In this document: positions 47,605 through 58,705 of the stretch, piece by piece | Numbering within the stretch: the first letter of the stretch is position 1 | Layout: the number at the start of each line of letters is the position of its first letter | Source: Streptomyces katrae | GTDB taxonomy: Bacteria > Actinomycetota > Actinomycetes > Streptomycetales > Streptomycetaceae | Length of the DNA stretch: 64,000 nucleotides | Direction of reading: 5' to 3' | Assembly: GCF_002028425.1 (NCBI RefSeq) | Contig: NZ_CP020042.1 | Span: 4,377,560-4,441,559, forward strand | Position numbers and translations under genes: made by a program | The notes under the pieces: generated by a model | Told to the model about the DNA's origin: nothing | Database searches by the model: none | What the model saw: only the letters and a program-made list of their open reading frames with translations

Positions 47605-48798
47605 ATGGCACTGGAACTGCCTCGGATCATCAGCGTCGACGATCACGTGATCGAGCCCGCCCACCTCTTCGACGTGTGGCTGCCCGCGAAGTACCGCGAC
47701 CGCGGCCCCAAGCCCCTCACCGCCGGCATCGGCGAGCTGGAGTACACCGGCGGCAAGTACGTGATCTCCATGGACCCCGACGGGCCGCCGACCGACTGGT
47801 GGATCTACGAGGACCTGAAGTTCCCGTACAAGCGCAACATCGCCGCCGTCGGCTTCGACCGCGACGACATGACCCTGGAGGGCATCACCCGCGAGGAGAT
47901 GCGCCGCGGCTGCTGGGACCCCAAGGCGCGGCTCCTCGACATGGACCTCAACCACGTCGAGGCCTCCCTCTGCTTCCCCACCTTCCCCCGCTTCTGCGGC
48001 CAGACCTTCGCCGAAGCGCACGACAAGGAGGTCGCCCTCGCCTGCGTGCGCGCCTACAACGACTGGATGGTGGAGGAGTGGTGCGGCGACAGCGGTGGCC
48101 GGCTGATCCCGCTGTGCATCATCCCGCTGTGGGACATCGACCTGGCCGTCGCCGAGATCCGCCGCAACGCCGCCCGCGGGGTCCGCGCCGTGACCTTCTC
48201 CGAGATCCCCACCCACCTCGGGCTGCCGTCCATCCACTCCGGCTACTGGGACCCCTTCTTCGCCGTCTGCCAGGAGACCGGCACGGTCGTGAACATGCAC
48301 ATCGGGTCCTCCTCCCAGATGCCCGCCGCCTCCCCCGACGCCCCGCCCGCCGTCCAGGCCTCGCTCAGCTTCAACAACGCCATGGCCTCGATGATGGACT
48401 TCCTCTTCAGCGGGGTCCTGGTGAAGTTCCCGACGCTGAAACTCGCCTACAGCGAGGGCCAGATGGGCTGGATCCCGTACGCCCTGGAGCGCGCGGACGA
48501 CGTCTGGCAGGAGCACCGCGCCTGGGGCGGGGTCCGCGGCCTGATCCCCGAGCCGCCGTCCACGTACTACTACCGGCAGATCTTCTGCTGCTTCTTCCGC
48601 GACAAGCACGGCATCGCCTCGCTGGACGTCGTCGGCCGCGACAACGCCACCTTCGAGACCGACTACCCGCACGTGGACTCGACCTTCCCGCACACCAAGG
48701 AGGTCGCCCTCGACCACGTGAAGGGACTGGACGACGAGACGATCCACAAGCTGATGCGCGGCAACGCCATCCGCATGCTCGGACTGGACCTGGTCTGA
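47605..48798 (+). CDS. amidohydrolase family protein (metal-dependent TIM-barrel hydrolase/decarboxylase)
   Basis: 397 aa, ATG at 47605. It begins with the amidohydrolase-2 signature IISVDDHVIEPAHLF (Asp-x-His metal ligands), followed by SEIPTHLGLPSIHSGYWDPFF and VVNMHIGSSS (His ligand), and the late FETDYPHVDSTFPHTKE with the catalytic Asp. The family includes ACMSD-like decarboxylases and ring-cleavage hydrolases. It stands 1 base before an acyl-CoA dehydrogenase, which suggests opening or processing of a cyclic acyl-CoA. The exact step is not known. Confidence 0.88.
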   Translation: MALELPRIISVDDHVIEPAHLFDVWLPAKYRDRGPKPLTAGIGELEYTGGKYVISMDPDGPPTDWWIYEDLKFPYKRNIAAVGFDRDDMTLEGITREEMRRGCWDPKARLLDMDLNHVEASLCFPTFPRFCGQTFAEAHDKEVALACVRAYNDWMVEEWCGDSGGRLIPLCIIPLWDIDLAVAEIRRNAARGVRAVTFSEIPTHLGLPSIHSGYWDPFFAVCQETGTVVNMHIGSSSQMPAASPDAPPAVQASLSFNNAMASMMDFLFSGVLVKFPTLKLAYSEGQMGWIPYALERADDVWQEHRAWGGVRGLIPEPPSTYYYRQIFCCFFRDKHGIASLDVVGRDNATFETDYPHVDSTFPHTKEVALDHVKGLDDETIHKLMRGNAIRMLGLDLV

Positions 48799-48799
48799 C

Positions 48800-49954
48800 A
48801 TGGACCTCTCCCACACCGAGGAGGAGCAGGACTTCCGGGCCCGGCTGCGCGCCTGGCTCGCCAAGGTGCTGCCCGAGCTGCCCGCCAAGCCGTCGCCCGA
48901 CGACTGGCCCGGCCGGCGCGCCTACGACCTCGGCTGGCAGCGCCGGCTCTACGACGCCGGCTACGCGGGCCTGCACTGGCCCCTCGACGCCGGGGGCCGC
49001 GGCGCCACCCCGACCCAGCACCTGATCTTCCTGGAGGAGACCGAGCGCGCCGGCGCCCCGTACGTCGGCGCCAACTTCGTCGGTCTGCTGCACGCCGGCC
49101 CCACCATCGCCGCCGAGGGGACCGCCGGGCAGCGGGCCCGCTGGCTGCCGCCGGTGCTGCGCGGGGAGGAGGTGTGGTGCCAGGGGTTCAGCGAGCCGGG
49201 CGCCGGCTCCGACCTGGCCGCGCTGCGCACCCGGGCGGTGCGCGACGGGGACGCCTACGTGGTCACCGGCTCCAAGATCTGGACCTCGCACGCCGAGGTC
49301 GCCGACTGGTGCGAGCTGCTGGTGCGCACCGACCCGGCCGCGCCCAAGCACAAGGGGATCTCCTGGCTGGCCATGCCGATGGACGCGCCCGGGGTCACGG
49401 TACGGCCGCTGCGCACCCTCGCGGGGTCTGCCGAGTTCGCGGAGGTGTTCCTGGACGAGGTCCGGGTGCCGGTCGCCAACCGGGTCGGCGCCGAGAACGA
49501 CGGCTGGCGGGTCACGATGGTCACCCTGTCCTTCGAGCGCGGCACCGCCTTCGTCGGGGAGGTCGTCGCCTGCCGGCGCACCCTGGGTGCGCTGGCGCGG
49601 GCGGCCAGGGCCAACGGCCGCTGGGACGACCCCGTACTGCGGCGCAGGCTGGGCCGGCTGTACGGGGAGTTCGGCGCGCTGTGGCGGCTCACGCAGTGGA
49701 ACGTCAGCGAGGCGCAGGGCTCGGGCGGGGTCCCCGGCATCGGGGGCAGCGTGTTCAAGCTGGCCTACTCGCACGCGCGGCAGGAGCTGTACGACGCGGC
49801 GGCGGAGGTGCTGGGGGCGGGGGCGCTGTCCCTGGAGGAGGAGTGGACGGCGGAGCGGCTGTCGTCGCTGTCCTACACGATCGCGGCGGGGACCTCGCAG
49901 ATCCAGCGGAACATCGTCGCCGAGCGGATCCTCGGCCTGCCGAAGGGGCGGTGA
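48800..49954 (+). CDS. acyl-CoA dehydrogenase, large subunit-type
   Basis: 384 aa. N-helical domain, then CQGFSEPGAGSDLAALRTRA (FAD/substrate motif), VTGSKIWTSHAEVADWCELL and the C-terminal helix with YTIAAGTSQIQRNIVAERIL. The TSQIQRN motif is typical. Together with the next gene it resembles the FadE-type heteromeric pairs of actinomycetes that dehydrogenate steroid or cyclic acyl-CoA intermediates, where one partner has the complete FAD site. Confidence 0.9.
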   Translation: MDLSHTEEEQDFRARLRAWLAKVLPELPAKPSPDDWPGRRAYDLGWQRRLYDAGYAGLHWPLDAGGRGATPTQHLIFLEETERAGAPYVGANFVGLLHAGPTIAAEGTAGQRARWLPPVLRGEEVWCQGFSEPGAGSDLAALRTRAVRDGDAYVVTGSKIWTSHAEVADWCELLVRTDPAAPKHKGISWLAMPMDAPGVTVRPLRTLAGSAEFAEVFLDEVRVPVANRVGAENDGWRVTMVTLSFERGTAFVGEVVACRRTLGALARAARANGRWDDPVLRRRLGRLYGEFGALWRLTQWNVSEAQGSGGVPGIGGSVFKLAYSHARQELYDAAAEVLGAGALSLEEEWTAERLSSLSYTIAAGTSQIQRNIVAERILGLPKGR

Positions 49955-49959
49955 GGGTC

Positions 49960-50910
49960 GTGGACTTCCGGCTGACGGAGGACCAGCGGGACCTGCGGGC
50001 GGGCGTCCGCGAGCTGCTCGCGGGGCGGTACGGGCGCGAGGCGCTGCGGGAGTCGGTGGCGTCCGGGGCGGCGGTGGACCGGCGGCTGTGGCGGGAGCTG
50101 GGCGAGGCGGGGTTCTTCTCCCTGCGGCTGCCGGAGTCCGAGGGCGGGGTCGGGCTGGGCCTGCCGGAGGCGGTGCTGGTCTTCGAGGAGGCCGGGCGGG
50201 CGCTGCTGCCGGGGCCGCTGGTGGCGACGCACCTGGCGGCCGGGGTGGTCCCGGGTGCGGCGACGGGCTCGGCGGTCGTGACGGCCTTCGACCTGGGCGG
50301 GCCGCTGGTGGCGCACCTGGGGGAGGCGGACGCGGTGCTGGGGGCGGAGGGGATGCCGCCCGGCGAGCCGGTCCGCTCGGTGGACCCGCTGACCCCGCTG
50401 TGGCGGTCCTCGGGGGTGCTCCCGCCGGAGCACCGGGAGGCGGGGGCGCTGCTGACGGCGGCGCTCCAGCTGGGCAGTGCGCTGCGGACGGTGGAGCTGG
50501 CGGTGCGCTACGCCGGGGAGCGCGAGCAGTTCGGGCAGCCGATCGGGGGCTTCCAGGCGGTCAAGCACCTGTGCGCGCGGATGCTGGTCCGCGCCGAGGT
50601 GGCCCGTACGGCGGTGTACGCGGCGGCGGTGACGGGTGACGCCGCCGAGATCGCGGCGGCCAAGCTCCTCGCGGACGAGGCGGCGGTGCGCGGGGCCCGG
50701 GACTGCCTCCAGGTGCACGGCGGGATGGGCTTCACGTGGGAGGCGGACGTGCACCTGCACCTGAAACGGGCGTGGGTGCGGGCGGAGCAGTGGCACACGG
50801 CGCGGGAGGCGGAGGAACTCCTGGCGGCCCGCCTCGGCACGGAAGCGGAGGCGGAAGCGGGCGCGGACGCCGAGCCCGACGCGGAGTCGGAGGTGGCGGT
50901 GATGGGGTAG
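49960..50910 (+). CDS. acyl-CoA dehydrogenase, partner subunit-type
   Basis: 316 aa from GTG 49960 (VDFRLTEDQRDLRAGVREL); GTG 49951, overlapping the previous stop, is possible too. It is shorter than normal (about 380), lacking a clear central FAD motif of the EPGAGSD kind. It keeps the C-terminal RYAGEREQFGQPIGGFQAVK, LLADEAAVRGARDCLQVHGG and MGFTWEADVHLHLKRAW. This matches the degenerate partner in heterotetrameric acyl-CoA dehydrogenases. The tail is Ala/Glu/Asp-rich. Confidence 0.85.
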   Translation: MDFRLTEDQRDLRAGVRELLAGRYGREALRESVASGAAVDRRLWRELGEAGFFSLRLPESEGGVGLGLPEAVLVFEEAGRALLPGPLVATHLAAGVVPGAATGSAVVTAFDLGGPLVAHLGEADAVLGAEGMPPGEPVRSVDPLTPLWRSSGVLPPEHREAGALLTAALQLGSALRTVELAVRYAGEREQFGQPIGGFQAVKHLCARMLVRAEVARTAVYAAAVTGDAAEIAAAKLLADEAAVRGARDCLQVHGGMGFTWEADVHLHLKRAWVRAEQWHTAREAEELLAARLGTEAEAEAGADAEPDAESEVAVMG

Positions 50911-51230
50911 CAGCCTGTGACGCAGGGGCACGGGAGGGACGGTGCGGGACTCATGTCCGATTACGGAGAGTTGATATCGGTTTGTGTCCTTCGCCCGCCC
51001 CGATCCGGCCCGGAGGCGGGGGTGTGCTCCGGTACGCTCCCACGATGCGAGTGGTTGAGCGGCGCGAGCGCCGCACAGTATGCACCACGCCTACTCCTTC
51101 GCGCTGGAATATGCCCGAAGCGCTTGTTGTGGTGACTGTACGTCAACCATGCTGCTCGGCAAGGGGACCACACTCGGTGATCCCGTCCTGTCGCGAGGCG
51201 AAGTGTCCGCCGGTTCGGATGGTGTGAGCG
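50911..51230. other. intergenic region, promoter-like, with a 7-bp hairpin
   Basis: 320 bases without a convincing gene. An AT-richer stretch at 50953-50990 (ATGTCCGATTACGG and GTTGATATCGG) may hold a promoter. A tight hairpin GCGGCGC-GA-GCGCCGC lies at 51059-51074. Several ORFs cross it but have poor codon bias. Confidence 0.4.
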
Positions 51231-51692
51231 GTGCAGGTGCTTCAGGTACAGCTGGAGGTAGGACCCGACCCCGCCGAGGTCGGGCGGGCGCGCCGGTGGG
51301 CGCGGTCCCGGCTGGCGGGGTCCGGCATAGGGGACGACGAACCGCTCGCCGAGACGCTGATCCTGCTGATCTCCGAGCTGGTCACCAACGCGGTCGTGCA
51401 CACGGGCTGTCCGGCCGTGCTGCGGATGCTCCTCGGGGGCCCGGGCGTACGGGTGGAGGTCGCCGACGCGAGCGACCGCGCCCCGGCCCGCCGGCAGGCC
51501 GCCGGGGACGACACGGGCGGGCGCGGGCTGGAGCTCGTGGACGGGCTCGCGGACCGGTGGGGCTGGCAGCGCGAGGGTGCGGGCAAGCGCATCTGGTGCG
51601 AGATCGACCGGGCGGGCGCGGAGCCGGCGCCGGTGCAGCCGGTGCCCCTGAAAAAAGTACTGCTGAAGCGGGAACCGCGCGTGTACCTCTAA
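51231..51692 (+). CDS. ATP-binding protein, RsbW/SpoIIAB-like histidine-kinase-type ATPase
   Basis: 153 aa from GTG 51231. HATPase_c_2 fold: RRWARSRLAGSG, the N-box LLISELVTNAVVHTGCPAVL, the ADASDRAPARRQ region, GGRGLELVDGLADRWGW and IWCEIDRA. Such short proteins are abundant in Streptomyces; some are anti-sigma kinases, most are orphan. It lies 477 bases upstream of the RiPP precursor on the same strand, and the two are probably not co-transcribed. Confidence 0.85.
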   Translation: MQVLQVQLEVGPDPAEVGRARRWARSRLAGSGIGDDEPLAETLILLISELVTNAVVHTGCPAVLRMLLGGPGVRVEVADASDRAPARRQAAGDDTGGRGLELVDGLADRWGWQREGAGKRIWCEIDRAGAEPAPVQPVPLKKVLLKREPRVYL

Positions 51693-52168
51693 TGAGGTGT
51701 TGACGGTTCGTCACCTGTTGATCACCCTGGTGTTGAGCGATTCGTCGCGAGGGGACGCCAAGGGTCCTGTGCCTTGACGAGTGCGGGTCGTGGGGTGGCG
51801 GCTGCCGTGCCGCGCTCGGGGCGTGCATGCCGCACGCCGCCACCCGCAGGTCCTTCGCCCGCGCGCGATACGCCTGCCCGCGCGCGATGCGCCTGCACGC
51901 GATGCCCGCGCGCGCGTCCTACGCGATGGGGAGGTCCCCCCGGGGTCGTTCCGGTGCGATACGGCGGGAACAAAGCCATGGCTGGCCGGAATTCGCGGGC
52001 CGGATTGGTAGGAGCGTACATAAAGACGTGGGGCCCGTTGTCTCCTGGGAAGACGGCTGCCTACGGTGGCGGCGCATTCTCCAGCGGGGCGCCGCCGGTG
52101 TACCTCCGGCAGTGTTCCGTGACCCTTAATTACGGCCACAAGCCATCCATGGGAGAGGGGGTACGGCG
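51693..52168. other. 476-bp upstream region of the RiPP precursor
   Basis: No credible gene. It contains GTTGA three times at 51711-51740, a cluster of CGCGCGAT(A/G)CGCCTGC near-repeats at 51862-51905, and a locally AT-rich TACATAAAGACG at 52017-52028 that could be a -10 region. The 140 bases before the precursor ATG would be its 5' leader. Confidence 0.4.
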
Positions 52169-52249
52169 ATGAAGATGCTTTTCGCCATCCGTAATGCCGT
52201 TTCCGGTCAGAAGAGCCTCAAGAAGAGCGCCTGGTACTTCTGGTACTAG
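52169..52249 (+). CDS. atropopeptide (tryptorubin-type) RiPP precursor peptide
   Basis: 26-aa ORF with a GAGAGGGGG ribosome site 7 bases before ATG. The leader is MKMLFAIRNAVSGQKSL and the end is KKSAWYFWY, then TAG. The C-terminal hexapeptide AWYFWY matches the core of tryptorubin A, AWYIWY, with Phe for Ile. Tryptorubin is a P450-bridged ribosomal peptide in which aromatic side chains are crosslinked into a noncanonical atropisomer. Lys/Ser before Ala suits proteolytic trimming to the core. Two P450 genes follow directly. I see this from reading the DNA; the ORF is too short for routine calling. Confidence 0.88.
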   Translation: MKMLFAIRNAVSGQKSLKKSAWYFWY

Positions 52250-52260
52250 ACCGGCAGAGC

Positions 52261-52287
52261 CGCCCCGGCCGCTCGTCGGCCGGGGCG
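52261..52287 (+). terminator. hairpin between precursor and P450 genes, attenuator candidate
   Basis: CGCCCCGGCCG (52261-52271) pairs perfectly with CGGCCGGGGCG (52277-52287) over loop CTCGT, 11 bases after the precursor stop. Partial termination here would make much more precursor than enzyme, a common design in RiPP operons. Confidence 0.7.
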
Positions 52288-52313
52288 ACACCGACGGCCC
52301 ATCGGAGCCCCGT

Positions 52314-53375
52314 ATGCCCCTCTCCTCCCTCCCGGCCACGCGGACCACGCTGTTCGCGCCCCGGCTCGCCGCCCTGCTGCGCGAGCACACCGGCAAGGAC
52401 GCCTTCCGTCTGGAACCCGACACCATGGGCGTCGCCGGCCACGCCCTGGCCGACCGGATCCTCGCCGCCCGCCGGGCCACCGAGACGGAGCGGCCCACCT
52501 TCAAACCGCTGCACGGCCGGTCGATCGGCCGCACCGAGGCGGCCTCCGTGATGCGGGTCATCGGGCGGGACGTCAGGGAAGCCCTGGAAGGCCCCGTGCC
52601 GAAGGACGTGGACCTCACCGGCCCGTGGCCGCTCACCGGGCACCTTTTCCTGAGGGACCTCATTCTCGGCGGCGATCCGCGCCGGCTGCGCATTCTGATG
52701 AGCCGGAACCTCGAGCTGACCCCGAAACTCACCTGGTCGGTGATAGCCGCGGGTGCGGCCTTTCCCTGGCGGAAAAGGCCCGGGGCGATATCGAGCGGAA
52801 TTGCCGGACTGCTGGCGGAAGCGGACGGCTACCACGACCGGCGCCACGCGATGGGCATCTACCGGAGGGCGGCCGCGCCCGTCTGCTTCACCGTCTCCAC
52901 CCTCGTCGCGAACGCCCTCTGGCTGGGCTCGCCCTTCGACGGCGACACCTCCAACCGGAACATCCTCCACGAGGCCGCCCGGCTGCTGCCCCCGTCCTGG
53001 AACATCCTGCGCTACGCCTCGCCCGAGTACGGGGCCCTCGACGCGCGCATCGGTGCCGGTGACGACGTACTCGTCCTGCCCCTGCTGTCCCACCGCGACC
53101 CCGCGCTGTGGGAGGACCCCGACGTGTTCCTGCCCGGACGGTGGGACCACCTCGACCCCGAGACCGCCCCGGGCTACCTGCCCTTCGGGCACTCCTCCGA
53201 GCGGTGCTGGGGGCGGCACATGGTCATGCCGCTCGCCGAACTGCTGCTGGACCTGATCCGCGGCGCCGGGCTGGAGGTCGACCCCGCCCAGCGGAAGGCG
53301 AAGGTGCCGCTGGTCGGGCTGCTCGGGGTGGAGGACGTACGGGTGGTCAGGGCGGGGGCACGGCATGGCCACTGA
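52314..53375 (+). CDS. cytochrome P450, putative atropopeptide crosslinking enzyme
   Basis: 353 aa from ATG 52314, clearly shorter than the usual 400 or so. The K-helix ExxR is Glu220-Arg223 in LHEAARLLPPSWNI. The heme-ligand loop is FGHSSERCWG with Cys298. The usual I-helix A/G-G-x-D/E-T/S is not obvious; the corresponding part reads FTVSTLVANALWLG, without the acid-alcohol pair. The N-terminal half is divergent (LEPDTMGVAGHALADRIL). Divergent, short and beside the precursor, this fits the family of single P450s that build the aryl-aryl and C-N bonds of atropopeptides. Confidence 0.88.
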   Translation: MPLSSLPATRTTLFAPRLAALLREHTGKDAFRLEPDTMGVAGHALADRILAARRATETERPTFKPLHGRSIGRTEAASVMRVIGRDVREALEGPVPKDVDLTGPWPLTGHLFLRDLILGGDPRRLRILMSRNLELTPKLTWSVIAAGAAFPWRKRPGAISSGIAGLLAEADGYHDRRHAMGIYRRAAAPVCFTVSTLVANALWLGSPFDGDTSNRNILHEAARLLPPSWNILRYASPEYGALDARIGAGDDVLVLPLLSHRDPALWEDPDVFLPGRWDHLDPETAPGYLPFGHSSERCWGRHMVMPLAELLLDLIRGAGLEVDPAQRKAKVPLVGLLGVEDVRVVRAGARHGH

Positions 53376-54618
53376 GGAGGTGCCCGTCTCCTTCTTCGAC
53401 GACCCCCACCCCGCCTGCCGGCGCTGGCGGGAGCTGGAGGGCGGGGCGCACCGGGTGCGGATCCTCGGCGAGGCCCCGCTGGAAGGCTGGGTGGTCACCG
53501 GGCACGCCGCATGCCGGGCAGCCCTCGCCGACCCCCGGCTGAGCAAGAACGCCGCGACCGAGGCCTTCGACCGCCGCGACGGCTCCGAGGAGGGTCCGGG
53601 CCCGGGCCGGGCGCTGACCGCGCACATGCTCAACTCCGACCCGCCCGCCCACACCCGGCTGCGCAGACTGGTCCAGCAGGCCTTCACGGCGCGCCGGGTG
53701 GCGGCCCTGCGTCCGGTGATCGAAGGCCACGTGAACCGCCTGCTGGACGCCCTGGAAGTCCCGGCGTCCCGCGCCGGGGCCCCCGTCGCCACCCGCGCGC
53801 CCGTCATCGACCTGGTCCGGGACTTCACCGTCCCGCTGCCCCTCGCCGTCGTCTTCGACCTGCTCGGCGCCTCCGAGGGGGCCGGGCACATCCTCAAGGC
53901 CTGGGCCGCCACCCTCAACGGCGAGGAGGGCGACGGCGAGGTCTCCGTCACCACCGCCGAGGCCCTGGTGGGCCACATCCGCTCCCTCATCGCCCACAAA
54001 CGCGCCCGCCCCGGCGACGACCTCCTGACCGCCCTGATCGCGGCCCGCGACGCGGGCGACCGGCTCGGCGAGCAGGAGATCACCTCCATGGGCTTCCTCC
54101 TGGTGGCGGCCGGCCACCAGACCACCGCCAACCTGATCTCCAACGGCGTCCACGCCCTCCTCACCCACCCCCGCGAAATGGCCGCACTCCGCGCCGACCC
54201 CTCGCGCACGGGCGCCTTCATCGAGGAAGTCCTGCGCCACGAAAGCCCGTTCTCCATCGCGACGATGCGCTACGCCACCGAGCCGGTGACCATAGGCGGC
54301 ACGGTGATCCCCGCCGGGGACTTCGTGCAGATCGCCCTGCTGTCCGCCAACCGCGACCCCGCCGCCTTCCCCGACCCGGACCGCTTCGACCCGGACCGCT
54401 TCGACCCGTCGCGCCCGGCGACGGGCCATCTGGCCTTCGGCCACGGCATCCACCACTGCCTCGGCGCCCCCCTGGCCCGCCTCCAGGCCGAAATCGCCTT
54501 CACCGCCCTCCTCACCCGCCACCCGAACCTGCGCCTGGCCACCCCGGCCGCCCGCCCCCTGTGGTGGCGCAACCCCCGCCACCGGGGCCTGCGGACCCTG
54601 CCGGTGCTGCTGGGCTGA
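53365..54618 (+). CDS. cytochrome P450, second enzyme of the RiPP cluster
   Basis: 417 aa, ATG inside the end of the first P450 (11-base overlap). A normal bacterial class I P450: I-helix FLLVAAGHQTTANLI, ExxR in EEVLRHESPFS, and heme loop FGHGIHHCLGAPLARL with Cys365. It is close to CYP107-like tailoring enzymes. It may add further oxidation to the crosslinked peptide, or a second set of bridges. A redox partner is not encoded here and must come from elsewhere. Confidence 0.9.
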   Translation: MATEEVPVSFFDDPHPACRRWRELEGGAHRVRILGEAPLEGWVVTGHAACRAALADPRLSKNAATEAFDRRDGSEEGPGPGRALTAHMLNSDPPAHTRLRRLVQQAFTARRVAALRPVIEGHVNRLLDALEVPASRAGAPVATRAPVIDLVRDFTVPLPLAVVFDLLGASEGAGHILKAWAATLNGEEGDGEVSVTTAEALVGHIRSLIAHKRARPGDDLLTALIAARDAGDRLGEQEITSMGFLLVAAGHQTTANLISNGVHALLTHPREMAALRADPSRTGAFIEEVLRHESPFSIATMRYATEPVTIGGTVIPAGDFVQIALLSANRDPAAFPDPDRFDPDRFDPSRPATGHLAFGHGIHHCLGAPLARLQAEIAFTALLTRHPNLRLATPAARPLWWRNPRHRGLRTLPVLLG

Positions 54619-54704
54619 CTTCAGGGGGCACTTCCGCCAGTACCGGGGTGTCCAACGTCAGGGCCAGGACGGTCGCGAGTGCCTTGGGGGTGGGGGGTGT
54701 CCGT

Positions 54705-55352
54705 TCACCGCCCGTACCGGCTCGCGATGCCCGCCACGACCAGGGCCAGGCCCTCCTCGAAGCCCTCGTCGTAGTTCTGGAAGAGGTCCGCCCCGGCTTC
54801 GGCGGCGAGGGGGAACTCGGCCAGCCGGGCGGCGCGTTCGGTGACGTCGAAGCCTGCGCGGCGTTCGCCGGGGAGGGGTTCGACGCCCTGCTCTTCCGTG
54901 ACGAAGCCGAGGGTGAAGAAGTACGCCGTGGTGGTGGCGCGGACGGCCTGGGGGAGGGAGAAGCCGGCTTCGGTGAGGGCGCGGAGGCTGTCCTCCATCC
55001 CGGCCGCGTGCTCGGTGCCGGTGAAGCGGGAGCCGCTGAACACCTTCGCGCCGTCGCGGTAGCGGAGCAGGGCGGCGCGCAGGCCGTGGTGGGCAGTCAG
55101 GAGGCGGTCCTGCCAGGAGAGGCCGGGGGAGGGCGGGGCGTCCGCTGCCATCCGGCGGTACATCTCCGTGGCCATCTCGTCCAGGAGTTCCTGCTTGTTC
55201 TTGAAGTGCCAGTAGAGGGCCGGCGCCTGGACGTCGAGCTCCTTGGCGATCGCGCGGAGGCTGAGGCCGTCGAGGCCGACCTCGTTGAGGAGCCGGAGGG
55301 AGGCCTCGACGGCCTGCTTCTTGTCCAGCTTCGGGGAGTTGCGAGGGGACAC
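54705..55352 (-). CDS. TetR family repressor (TetR_C class)
   Basis: 215 aa from GTG 55352. HTH: LLNEVGLDGLSLRAIAKELD then VQAPALYWHFKNKQELLDEM. The C-terminal domain has RFTGTEHAAGMEDSLRALTE and AYFFTLGFVTEEQG, as in tetracycline-repressor-like regulators of resistance genes. It is divergent from a FAD-dependent monooxygenase and separated by two copies of a near-perfect palindrome, the likely operators. Confidence 0.9.
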   Translation of the reverse strand: MSPRNSPKLDKKQAVEASLRLLNEVGLDGLSLRAIAKELDVQAPALYWHFKNKQELLDEMATEMYRRMAADAPPSPGLSWQDRLLTAHHGLRAALLRYRDGAKVFSGSRFTGTEHAAGMEDSLRALTEAGFSLPQAVRATTTAYFFTLGFVTEEQGVEPLPGERRAGFDVTERAARLAEFPLAAEAGADLFQNYDEGFEEGLALVVAGIASRYGR

Positions 55353-55361
55353 GCTTGACAG

Positions 55362-55413
55362 CTTAACACCGTTAAGGGCAGGCTCGGGGGTGTCGAACTT
55401 AACGCCGTTAAGG
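55362..55413. promoter_or_regulatory. paired TetR operators CTTAACRCCGTTAAGG
   Basis: Two near-identical palindromes, CTTAACACCGTTAAGG (55362-55377) and CTTAACGCCGTTAAGG (55398-55413), lie 36 bases apart centre to centre in the gap between divergent TetR and monooxygenase genes. Copy number and placing mimic tetO pairs. Confidence 0.8.
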
Positions 55414-55431
55414 AAAGTGCGGGTGGGTGTG

Positions 55432-56883
55432 ATGGGCATGGACGTACATCGGGACGTGGACGTGGACGTGGACGTGCTGGTCGTCGGGGCCGGTGCCGCA
55501 GGGCTCGCGCTCGGGGTCGACCTCGCGCGGCGGGGCGTACGGGCCCTCGTGGTCGAGCGAGACCGGCGGCTGTTCCCCGGCTCGCGCGGCAAGGGGATCC
55601 AGCCGCGGACGATGGAGGTCTTCGACGACCTCGGGGTCGGCGCCGCCGTCCGGGCGGCGGGCGGCCCGTACCCGGCCAGGATGATCTGGCGGGACGGCGA
55701 GCGGCTCGGCGAGCAGGCGATGTGGGACCCGACGGAGCCGGAGGAGGGCTCGCCGTACCACGAGCCCTGGATGGTGCCGCAGTGGCGCACCCAGGAAGTC
55801 CTCTTCACCCGCCTCGGCGAGCTGGGCGGACGGGTCGCCTTCGGCCGGGAGCTGGTCGGGATCACACAGGACGCGGAGGGGGTGACGGCCCGGTTCGCCG
55901 ACGGCGCCCCCGTGCGGGCCCGGTACGCGGTCGCCGCCGACGGCGGGCGGTCCACGGTGCGGCGGCTGCTCGGGATCGGGATGACCGGCGAGACGGTCGA
56001 CCCGAACCCGGTCCTGGTGGCCGACGTGCGCATCAGCGGACTCGACCGCGACCACTGGCACGTCTTCCCGCCCGCGGACGGCGAGGGCTTCCTCGCCGTG
56101 TGCCCGCTCGCCGGGACGGAGGACTTCCAGGTCACCGCCCAGATGCCGGCGGGCGGCCCGGCGGTCGACCTCTCCCTGGAGGGGCTGCGCGCGGTCGTGG
56201 CCGCGCGCTCGCACCTGGATCCGGGCGATGTGACGGAGGTCCGCTGGGCCTCCGACTTCCGGCCGCGGGCGGCGATGGCCGACCGGTTCCGGGAGGGGCG
56301 GGTCTTCCTCGTCGGGGACGCCGCGCACGTGCACTCGCCGGCGGGCGGGCAGGGGCTCAACACCAGCGTGCAGGACGCGTACAACCTGGGCTGGAAGCTG
56401 GCCGCCGTGTTGAGCGGCGCGGCGCCGGAGGTGCTGCTCGGCACGTACGAGGAGGAGCGGCTGCCCGTCGCCGCCGACATGCTCGGCCTGTCGACCCGGA
56501 TCCACCGCGGCGAGGCCCGCCGCGGCGCGGCCACGCAGCAGCTCGGCCTCGGCTACCGGGGCTCCTCCCTGGCGGTGGAGACCCGCACGGCCCTGCCCGC
56601 CGAAGCCCTGCGGGCCGGTGACCGGGCCCCGGACGGGGTACGGGGCGGCCTCCGCCTCTTCGACGCGTACCGGGGTCCGCACTGGACCCTGCTGCTGGTC
56701 GGGGCCCAGGCCCCGGCGGAGCTGCCGGGCGCGCGGACGGTACGGATCCCGTCGTACGGGGCCTACGGCGACGGGGTGTTCCTGATCCGCCCGGACGGCT
56801 ACGTGGGCTGGGCGGGGGAGCCGGGAGAGCCGGGAGAGCCGGGGAAGGGCCTGGCGGCGTACGCGGCCCGCGTCGGCCTCTAG
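55432..56883 (+). CDS. FAD-dependent monooxygenase (phenol hydroxylase/Rox-like)
   Basis: 483 aa from ATG 55432. GxGxxG motif VLVVGAGAAGLALGVDLARRG (about residue 15), the GIQPRTMEVFDDLG segment, DG motif in AADGGRSTVRRLLGIG, and GD motif VFLVGDAAHVHSPAGGQGLN. It has a thioredoxin-like C-terminal tail region (LLVGAQAPAEL). The class hydroxylates aromatic antibiotics or phenols with NAD(P)H; with a TetR partner it may be a resistance/detoxification enzyme. N-terminal DVDVDVDV comes from a GTGGAC microsatellite. Confidence 0.9.
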   Translation: MGMDVHRDVDVDVDVLVVGAGAAGLALGVDLARRGVRALVVERDRRLFPGSRGKGIQPRTMEVFDDLGVGAAVRAAGGPYPARMIWRDGERLGEQAMWDPTEPEEGSPYHEPWMVPQWRTQEVLFTRLGELGGRVAFGRELVGITQDAEGVTARFADGAPVRARYAVAADGGRSTVRRLLGIGMTGETVDPNPVLVADVRISGLDRDHWHVFPPADGEGFLAVCPLAGTEDFQVTAQMPAGGPAVDLSLEGLRAVVAARSHLDPGDVTEVRWASDFRPRAAMADRFREGRVFLVGDAAHVHSPAGGQGLNTSVQDAYNLGWKLAAVLSGAAPEVLLGTYEEERLPVAADMLGLSTRIHRGEARRGAATQQLGLGYRGSSLAVETRTALPAEALRAGDRAPDGVRGGLRLFDAYRGPHWTLLLVGAQAPAELPGARTVRIPSYGAYGDGVFLIRPDGYVGWAGEPGEPGEPGKGLAAYAARVGL

Positions 56884-57172: not shown

Positions 57173-57727
57173 ATGACGAACCGCGGGCACTCATCCGATC
57201 CCCACCCCACACCGTGGTCGGACACCGTCCCGGCCCACCGGGATCTCGTTGCGGCGAGAGCACTCGTCTACGACCCCTGCGGGTTCACCTGCACGCAGCC
57301 CACCCCCGAAGCCGAGGGTGCCGCTTACGCCGCCCACGAGTTCACTCTCGACGGCCTCTCCATCCGGTTCCGCGCAGCCAAGACGACCCCCACCAAGGTG
57401 GGCCAGTTCGTCACCGTCTGGAAGAGGTCCCCGGCCGGGCCCATCCAGCCCTTCGACGCCGCGGACCCCGTCGACCTCTTTGTCATCAGCACCCGCGAGC
57501 ATCACCACCTCGGCCAGTTCGTGTTTCCCATGGACGCCCTCCGCCGGCACGGGGTCGTATCAGCGGGCGGCCGTGGCGGGAAGCGGGCCTTCCGCGTCTA
57601 CCCGCCCTGGGTGACCACCGCCAACCGCCAGGCCGGCAGTGCGCAGGCCTGGCAGCTGGACTACTTCCTGCACCTGCACCAGGACGGTCCTGTCGACCTG
57701 GCCCGCGCCAAGGAGCTCTACCGCTGA
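57173..57727 (+). CDS. MepB-family protein
   Basis: 184 aa, ATG at 57173. The family signature is seen in GAAYAAHEFTLDGLSIRFRA, PTKVGQFVTVWKR, DAADPVDLFVISTREHHHLG and KRAFRVYPPWVTTANRQA. MepB is named from the staphylococcal mepRAB operon; its biochemical role is unknown. It is not accompanied by a MepA-type efflux pump here. Confidence 0.85.
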   Translation: MTNRGHSSDPHPTPWSDTVPAHRDLVAARALVYDPCGFTCTQPTPEAEGAAYAAHEFTLDGLSIRFRAAKTTPTKVGQFVTVWKRSPAGPIQPFDAADPVDLFVISTREHHHLGQFVFPMDALRRHGVVSAGGRGGKRAFRVYPPWVTTANRQAGSAQAWQLDYFLHLHQDGPVDLARAKELYR

Positions 57728-57745: not shown

Positions 57746-58405
57746 CTAGCGGCGCCAGAACAGGTGGTGGGTCACCCCGCTCGGGCTGTGGACCACGTCC
57801 ATGTGGAAGCGGTCGAGGAGGTCGTCCGGGGAATCCCACAGGCGCAGGCCGGGGCCGCCGAGTTCCACCGGCGACACCGCCACGTGGAGCGTGTCGACCA
57901 GGTCGGCTTCGAGGAACTCGCGGACCGTGGTCACCCCGCCGCCCAGACGGACGTCCTTGCCCTGGGCCGCCTCGCGCGCCCGGGCCAGGGCGGTGGCCGG
58001 GTCGGCGTCGATGAAGTGGAATGTGGTGTCGGAGAGGGTGAGGGACGGGCGGGGGTGGTGGGTCATGACGAACACCGGGGTGTGGAAGGGGGGTTCGTCG
58101 CCCCACCAGCCCTGCCAGTCCGCGTGGTCCTCCCAGGGGCCCCGGTAGGGGCTGAACTTGTTGCGGCCCATGATCTCGGCGCCGATGTTGTTCTTGAAGT
58201 CCCGGGTGAAGTAGTCGTCCAGGCCGCGGCTGCCGCCGGGGTCGGTGCGGGTCGGCCAGCTCGCGGTGGCGCCGGCCCAGGAGAACAGCTCGGCCGGGTT
58301 CATGCCGTCGCCGAAGGGCTGTTCCAGGCGCTGGTTGTGGCCTGCGCCGTAGCCGTCGCGGGTGACGTTGAAGTTCTGGACCCGGAGGAGTTGCTGAGTG
58401 GGCAT
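57746..58405 (-). CDS. RibD C-terminal/dihydrofolate reductase-like protein
   Basis: 219 aa from ATG 58405. NADPH-binding reductase fold: LLRVQNFNVTRDGYGAGHNQ, GAEIMGRNKFSPYRGPWEDH, FVMTHHPRPSLTL, and DVRLGGGVTTVREFLEADLV. Typical of the RibD_C/YyaP superfamily. Substrates of these stand-alone proteins are mostly unknown; a role in folate or flavin metabolism is not proven. It converges on MepB with an 18-bp gap. Confidence 0.85.
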   Translation of the reverse strand: MPTQQLLRVQNFNVTRDGYGAGHNQRLEQPFGDGMNPAELFSWAGATASWPTRTDPGGSRGLDDYFTRDFKNNIGAEIMGRNKFSPYRGPWEDHADWQGWWGDEPPFHTPVFVMTHHPRPSLTLSDTTFHFIDADPATALARAREAAQGKDVRLGGGVTTVREFLEADLVDTLHVAVSPVELGGPGLRLWDSPDDLLDRFHMDVVHSPSGVTHHLFWRR

Positions 58406-58705
58406 GGGGGTTGGGGCCTTTCCGGTCGTGGTGGCAGTGGCAGTGGCAGTGGTGGTCGTGGTGGTGCTGAGGGTGAGACTGCCGGGGCGGGCGGAACTCA
58501 TCGGTGCGGGCCCGGACCGACGCGCGGACATGCCGCCTTCGGAGTAATGGCGGGGGCGGGGGCCGACTCCCGGCCGTACCGGCGGGTGTCCGAGGTGGTC
58601 GGCCTCGCCCCCCGGGGGGTGGCGCCTGAGCCGGGATCGGGTCCGGGTGCGCCAGGATGCTGCGCGGGGGGCCGTGCCAGTCCGCCACCCGGAGAGCGAG
58701 CGCCC
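58406..58705. other. intergenic region with a TGGCAG microsatellite
   Basis: Plus-strand TGGCAG/TGGTGG hexamers repeat at about 58430-58475, upstream of the minus-strand reductase start. The rest is high-GC sequence with no clear gene. An FkbM ribosome site GGAGA closes the stretch. Confidence 0.4.

Follow-up and report, generated by a model that had tools for sequence, protein, structure and literature searches.

The core of tryptorubin A is AWYIWY. Its cluster (try/trp) combines a KSLK leader and a hexapeptide core with one cytochrome P450 (P450) that makes three bonds. Atropopeptides are defined by KSLK or a close motif, at residues 17 to 20 of the precursors analyzed, by an xWxxxx core with a conserved Trp2, of which xWxxWx is the bitryptide subset, by a family-defining P450 encoded beside the precursor and by aromatic cross-links that a P450 makes in the product (PMC11450843). 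In the lau cluster of Streptomyces laurentii, co-expression of lauA and lauB1 gave tryptorubin B, with three bonds, and the full cluster gave laurentirubin B, in which LauB2 adds a Trp-Tyr aryl ether as one extra oxidative bridge (PMC11450843). The window analyzed here, a stretch of 64,000 nucleotides (nt) of Streptomyces katrae DNA (GCF_002028425.1, contig NZ_CP020042.1, positions 4,377,560 to 4,441,559), encodes a 26-residue precursor with the core AWYFWY followed by two P450s, which we call P450-1 and P450-2 (Table 1). The order of precursor with a WYxWY core, P450-1 and P450-2 is shared with lau; the lau core has Ile4 (WYIWY) where the window has Phe4, and product and bonds are solved for lau (PMC11450843) and predicted for the window. 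The tryptorubin A cluster likewise has Ile4, and has a single P450 gene against two in the window. Because the precursor matches a curated family model, carries both KSLK and an xWxxWx core, and is followed by P450s resembling the presumed LauB1 and LauB2, the locus is most probably a laurentirubin-type atropopeptide cluster whose AWYFWY product would bear the cage and a fourth bond.

The precursor scored 52.2 bits against the NCBIfam model NF038372 (tryptorubin_fam), which has a curated cut-off of 33. It was the single match across the whole genome, and none of 14 control genomes was matched. Sampled genomes were matched in 43 of 392 cases within the genus (41 over the cut-off), 49 of 394 within the family and 31 of 391 within the order; these samples overlap, and the window's genome is among them. 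KSLK occupies residues 15 to 18, the core carries Trp2 and Trp5 in the xWxxWx arrangement, and the family-defining P450 is encoded beside the precursor, P450-1 being among the 125 precursor-linked P450s on the tree. Biarylitides, another family of P450-bridged ribosomally synthesized and post-translationally modified peptides (RiPPs), have a five-residue precursor peptide (PMC13417212); the precursor here, with 26 residues, falls outside that family.

Related loci came from two sources, similarity to P450-1 of the window (the best 80 of 87) and matches to the precursor model in the genomes sampled, which leaves distant members under-sampled. A precursor followed by P450-1 in the same order was found at 167 loci, 125 of them non-redundant (the window is counted in both numbers). 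L075 was left out since it has no precursor, and a further search of 70 genomes from the genus of genome G447 gave no additional loci. In 124 of the 125, the precursor is preceded within 20 nt by a purine stretch resembling a ribosome site. The precursor of L166 is an identical peptide with three codon differences, all synonymous, and that of L001 differs from the window by one codon, a replacement (Met3 to Ile).

P450-1 (P0001) shares 74% identity with the presumed LauB1 (P0101) of S. laurentii and 72% with a homologue from S. jumonjinensis; the clusters of both species were expressed (PMC11450843). Together with the model match, this likeness supports the proposal in the original prediction, which a model made from the letters alone, that the locus is a tryptorubin-type cluster with the core AWYFWY. 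The same prediction had called P450-1 short and divergent. Its score against the generic Pfam p450 model is modest (47.4 bits), and a PDB sequence search with P450-1 returned distant P450s only. Its 353 amino acids are normal for the family: homologues measured 336 to 390 amino acids, most near 350 (120 among the matches listed), so the short form is the family's usual look and not a truncation. A truncated enzyme was ruled out by these lengths and by the full fold predicted for P450-1. The I helix of the family (window 52830 to 52928, residues 173 to 205) seems to have no acid before the conserved Thr193, a position assigned by eye. The residue before Thr193 in the family is Phe192, 98% conserved, which is unusual for an O2-activating P450.

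P450-2 lies directly downstream of P450-1, overlapping it by 11 bases, and shows 65% identity across 413 columns with the presumed LauB2 (P0136); a LauB2-related second P450 in this position is what characterizes the laurentirubin type. A P450-2 tree of 37 rows, 25 of them the full P450-2s from our loci and 12 other proteins, was built by a quick method without bootstrap. It contained a 29-row clade, with a Shimodaira-Hasegawa-like approximate likelihood-ratio (SH-aLRT) support of 99, that held all 25 full P450-2s, both S. laurentii proteins, P0199 (Nonomuraea) and P0208 (Catenulispora). P0208 was at zero distance from L196, and the presumed LauB2 was nested among the P450-2s of AWYFWY clusters. 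Both enzymes of the window fell with atropopeptide P450s, and not away from them, in the phylogenies. The next four P450 genes of the window's genome are 44 to 49% identical to P450-2, leaving it without a close paralogue, and its best solved relatives in the PDB sequence search were PikC and TamI. P450-2 as an unrelated neighbor was ruled out by its co-occurrence with the other genes and by the clade shared with the presumed LauB2. Since the published role of LauB2 is to form an extra oxidative bridge, the second oxidation step suggested in the original prediction is probable. Every one of the 25 non-redundant clusters that have a full P450-2, the window included, keeps Trp2, Trp5 and Tyr6; the Trp5-Tyr6 end was missing in 19 of 95 loci without a full P450-2. 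Fragments of P450-2 were seen in two AWYFWY clusters, L006 (6346 to 6660, keeping residues 307 to 416) and L121 (residues 9 to 133), and represent an apparent loss of the tailoring step.

The AWYFWY core was found in 22 of the 125 non-redundant loci, including the window: 18 with a full P450-2, two with fragments and two (L036 and L193) with none. With the two fragment loci and three loci at contig ends set aside, 120 non-redundant loci were scorable, and a full P450-2 was present in 18 of 20 Phe4 loci versus 7 of 100 others (6 Ile, 1 Val; Fisher p = 7e-14, kinship ignored). On the P450-1 tree, Phe4 required at least 9 changes and P450-2 at least 7. Five independent pairs, separated by well-supported branches, differed in Phe4; P450-2 was concordant in 2.1 of them on average and never opposite. 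Four pairs differed in P450-2, with Phe4 concordant in 2.3 on average and opposite in a few of 200 pairings. Neither independent-pairs test was significant (median p = 0.5), and fewer than six informative pairs cannot reach significance. Proof of coupling between Phe4 and P450-2 was therefore rejected: the Fisher result ignores kinship, and independent pairs are too few. Two SWYIWY loci without P450-2 (L030 and L035) sit in a 10-row clade whose other eight rows have AWYFWY and P450-2 (six full, two fragments). L193 has Phe4 inside an AWYLWY group and lacks P450-2, which argues against a tight link. The tree does not distinguish gain from loss, and the link between Phe4 and P450-2 is a lead.

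The proposed pathway follows the characterized systems in its bonds, in the order in which they form and in its peptidase steps. The 26-residue precursor would be translated, and its leader, anchored by KSLK, would dock on P450-1. This enzyme would link the aromatic side chains of AWYFWY into a tryptorubin-type cage through a Trp2-Trp5 C-C bond, a Trp2-Tyr3 C-N bond and a C-N bond from Trp5 to the backbone, with a net loss of four hydrogens; that loss is seen in varsorubin B1, which has these three bonds (PMC11450843). P450-2 would add a fourth bond, most likely a Trp5-Tyr6 aryl ether as in laurentirubin, for a net loss of six hydrogens in all, and host peptidases would cut off the leader and often Ala1. 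With both P450s active, [M+H]+ is predicted at 929.3617 (hexapeptide) and 858.3246 (pentapeptide), and with P450-1 acting alone at 931.3774 (hexapeptide) and 860.3402 (pentapeptide). Applied to laurentirubin, the same loss of six hydrogens yields the published formulas C49H51N8O9+ and C46H46N7O8+ (PMC11450843). The pathway is also favored by the tolerance of ScaA at the site equivalent to position 4: nine of ten residues tested, including Tyr, were processed by ScaB and Arg was not; Phe was outside that list.

Several points weigh against this pathway. The identification of P0101 with LauB1 and of P0136 with LauB2 is presumed from the species name and not taken from an accession, and 65% identity to the presumed LauB2 leaves the bond made by P450-2 unfixed at the level of sequence. 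Because L006 and L121 retain only fragments of P450-2 and L036 and L193 have none, P450-2 appears dispensable with an AWYFWY core. LauB1 modified a foreign precursor only poorly, and scabrirubin and varsorubin B2a are simpler family products with one bond and one ring (PMC11450843). No consensus sigma-70 promoter was found in 51700 to 52400, in a scan for that consensus only, so the cluster may be silent. P450-2 could also act differently here, either on Phe4, by hydroxylation or a new cross-link, or by making another bond at Trp5 or Tyr6. We regard this as unlikely. The coincidence of Phe4 with full P450-2 and the position of the SWYIWY loci L030 and L035 within a clade of AWYFWY and P450-2 speak for it. 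Against it, the presumed LauB2 is nested among the AWYFWY P450-2s yet works on an Ile4 core, seven loci with Ile4 or Val4 also have a full P450-2, and the concordance in independent pairs was not significant. A stronger version, in which Phe4 is the preferred partner of P450-2, used or needed by it to give a bond or hydroxylation unseen in laurentirubin, and in which the core drifts to Ile (SWYIWY) once P450-2 is lost, seems distinctly unlikely.

A simpler product with one or two bonds, such as a monocyclic Trp-Trp peptide, or a cluster that is silent in this strain, is likewise quite improbable. It draws on the existence of the monocyclic relatives and on the promoter scan; that scan was limited to the sigma-70 consensus, P450-1 resembles the presumed LauB1, maker of the full cage, and WYxWY is retained. 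In addition, all three genes have intact reading frames, and only synonymous changes separate the L166 precursor gene from that of the window. A 26-codon open reading frame (ORF) is weak evidence by itself, and the low generic score of P450-1 would suit a random ORF that happens to end in WYFWY next to ordinary catabolic P450s. That explanation has next to no probability and is already refuted by conservation as read from the sequences: the curated-model match, the clean control genomes, the 125 non-redundant pairs in the same order and the near-universal ribosome-site-like stretch.

The original prediction had reported a 26-codon ORF with a ribosome site and a KKSAWYFWY terminus, a hairpin and two P450 genes, and all are present where it had placed them (Table 1). 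The border between leader and core was placed provisionally, by analogy with tryptorubin.

Table 1. Features of the precursor-P450-1-P450-2 unit, in positions of the window.
Feature	Position	Strand	Basis or remark
Ribosome-binding site of precursor gene, purine-rich, GGGAGAGGGGG	52151-52161	+	Direct sequence reading
Precursor ORF, 26 codons	52169-52249	+	Encodes MKMLFAIRNAVSGQKSLKKSAWYFWY
Leader peptide MKMLFAIRNAVSGQKSLKKS	52169-52228	+	NCBIfam NF038372 match
KSLK motif within leader	52211-52222	+	Published leader motif (PMC11450843)
Core AWYFWY and stop codon	52229-52249	+	xWxxWx pattern
Hairpin between precursor and P450-1, 11-bp stem, 5-nt loop	52261-52287 (arms 52261-52271/52277-52287)	+	
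P450-1, atropopeptide-defining P450 (LauB1 type), 353 amino acids	52314-53375	+	
P450-2, LauB2-type tailoring P450, 417 amino acids	53365-54618	+	

The 60 nt that follow the precursor stop were folded in all 125 loci and compared with dinucleotide shuffles. In the window the hairpin had a z of -1.47 over 64 nt and -2.34 over 60 nt (60 shuffles). By itself it is unremarkable for so GC-rich a stretch; its recurrence in relatives makes it notable. The mean z was -1.80 after the precursor stop; the regions used for comparison gave -0.58 (ahead of the precursor), -0.25 (P450-1 coding sequence) and -0.44 (downstream of P450-1). Perfect stems of at least 8 bp were present in 32 of 125 loci after the precursor stop, in 1 of 125 upstream, in 1 of 125 within P450-1 coding sequence and in 13 of 124 after P450-1. 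When the first 80 nt were read with G-U pairs and a single mismatch permitted, 62 of 125 loci reached a stem score of 10, a count that carries no shuffle control. Those 62 loci have 56 different 5′ arms, and the hairpin thus recurs while its letters change. It was weak in seven loci of the SEPSLK type (z of -0.03 to -1.77 in the first 60 nt), although L043 forms a long stem when 80 nt are considered, and L010 lacks the hairpin (z of +1.91 in the first 60 nt). Enrichment was seen both with P450-2 (mean z of -2.19) and without it (-1.69) and is not a specialty of P450-2 clusters. No T-run terminator pattern was found in 51700 to 52400. Hairpins that set the ratio of precursor to enzyme occur in other short RiPP operons, and the one here may do the same. 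Neither "hairpin" nor "position 4" is mentioned in the main text of PMC11450843.

The leader varies across the loci. Twelve of them (L179, L196, L197, L177, L178, L058, L132, L050, L066, L069, L002 and L187) have QSLK, KSMK, KNLK, RSFK or TSLK in place of KSLK. The KSLK-type pattern applied at first did not cover them, and they were read with a looser pattern; their precursors are clearly of atropopeptide type, and a full P450-2 is present in L179, L196 and L197. CoreFinder requires listed leader motifs (PMC11450843) and would miss such loci, since these variants are outside its list. Eight further loci (L033, L037, L039, L041, L042, L043, L051 and L054) share a leader of another kind, with SEPSLKQ or SQPSLKQ at its end; their cores are AWYFWY, AWYVWY or AWYIWY, and P450-2 is present in all eight. 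A Xanthomonas locus (L076:4484-4746) contains a tandem pair of precursor-like genes, of the SWPHWY and AWEGYISY types.

Comparison of related loci also delimited the unit. Homology with L010 and L078 starts at window position 52153, runs up to the end of P450-2 or falls just short of it, and spans just the precursor, P450-1 and P450-2. Homology with L001 ends at 54619, directly past the P450-2 stop, so the downstream genes differ. Upstream, window 47605 to 51692 holds amidohydrolase and acyl-CoA dehydrogenase genes and then an HATPase_c_2 gene. Downstream lie a divergent pair at 54705 to 56883, a TetR regulator (- strand) and an FAD_binding_3 monooxygenase-type gene (+ strand), and a MepB-like protein (57173 to 57727, + strand) that faces a RibD C-terminal domain protein (57746 to 58531, - strand). 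Among the loci compared, L001 and L179 are the only ones in which the HATPase and acyl-CoA dehydrogenase genes recur, and part of the TetR gene recurs in L166 alone, at the end of the stretch compared. A wider cluster that includes the downstream TetR and FAD genes or the upstream HATPase and acyl-CoA dehydrogenase genes was ruled out by this poor recurrence and by where homology to L001, L010 and L078 ends, in a comparison limited by the many loci that span only 2 to 3 kb per side.

Judged by sequence, the cluster is a new family member with a Phe core, and both its two-P450 layout and its AWYFWY core already exist in relatives; the novelty implied by the original prediction was not upheld. 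The nearest of the 80 loci taken by similarity to P450-1 is that of S. katrae NRRL ISP-5550 (L001), with 93% identity in P450-1, 88% in P450-2 and shared upstream neighbors. Streptomyces sp. MMG1121 (L078) has AWYFWY and both P450s in the same order, with 79% identity in P450-1, 65% in P450-2 and five differences in the leader. MMG1121 was named for its extra P450 and led the authors to lau; it was in no collection, and S. laurentii was used instead (PMC11450843). The covered sections of that paper give no product for MMG1121. According to the same paper, two exceptions from Liu et al. 2024 (Angew. Chem. e202314046) were also characterized with an additional P450. A review credits Liu et al. 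2024 with tsukirubins A-C and olivorubins A-B, which may be the two exceptions. AWYFWY had no match in the literature texts searched, a set that leaves most subscription papers, supplementary lists and Liu et al. 2024 outside its scope; an AWYFWY-like product may therefore already be known. The bare string WYFWY matched only papers without RiPP titles and was absent from the main texts of PMC11450843 and PMC12352619.

Three tested atropopeptides are reported to be antiviral, and one non-natural atropopeptide to be anti-inflammatory (PMC12352619). The locus described here would add a complete two-P450 cluster with a Phe core to this family of rigid, cage-like peptides. It also frames two points that can be checked: whether P450-2 co-evolves with core position 4, and whether the relative amounts of precursor and enzyme are set by the recurring hairpin.

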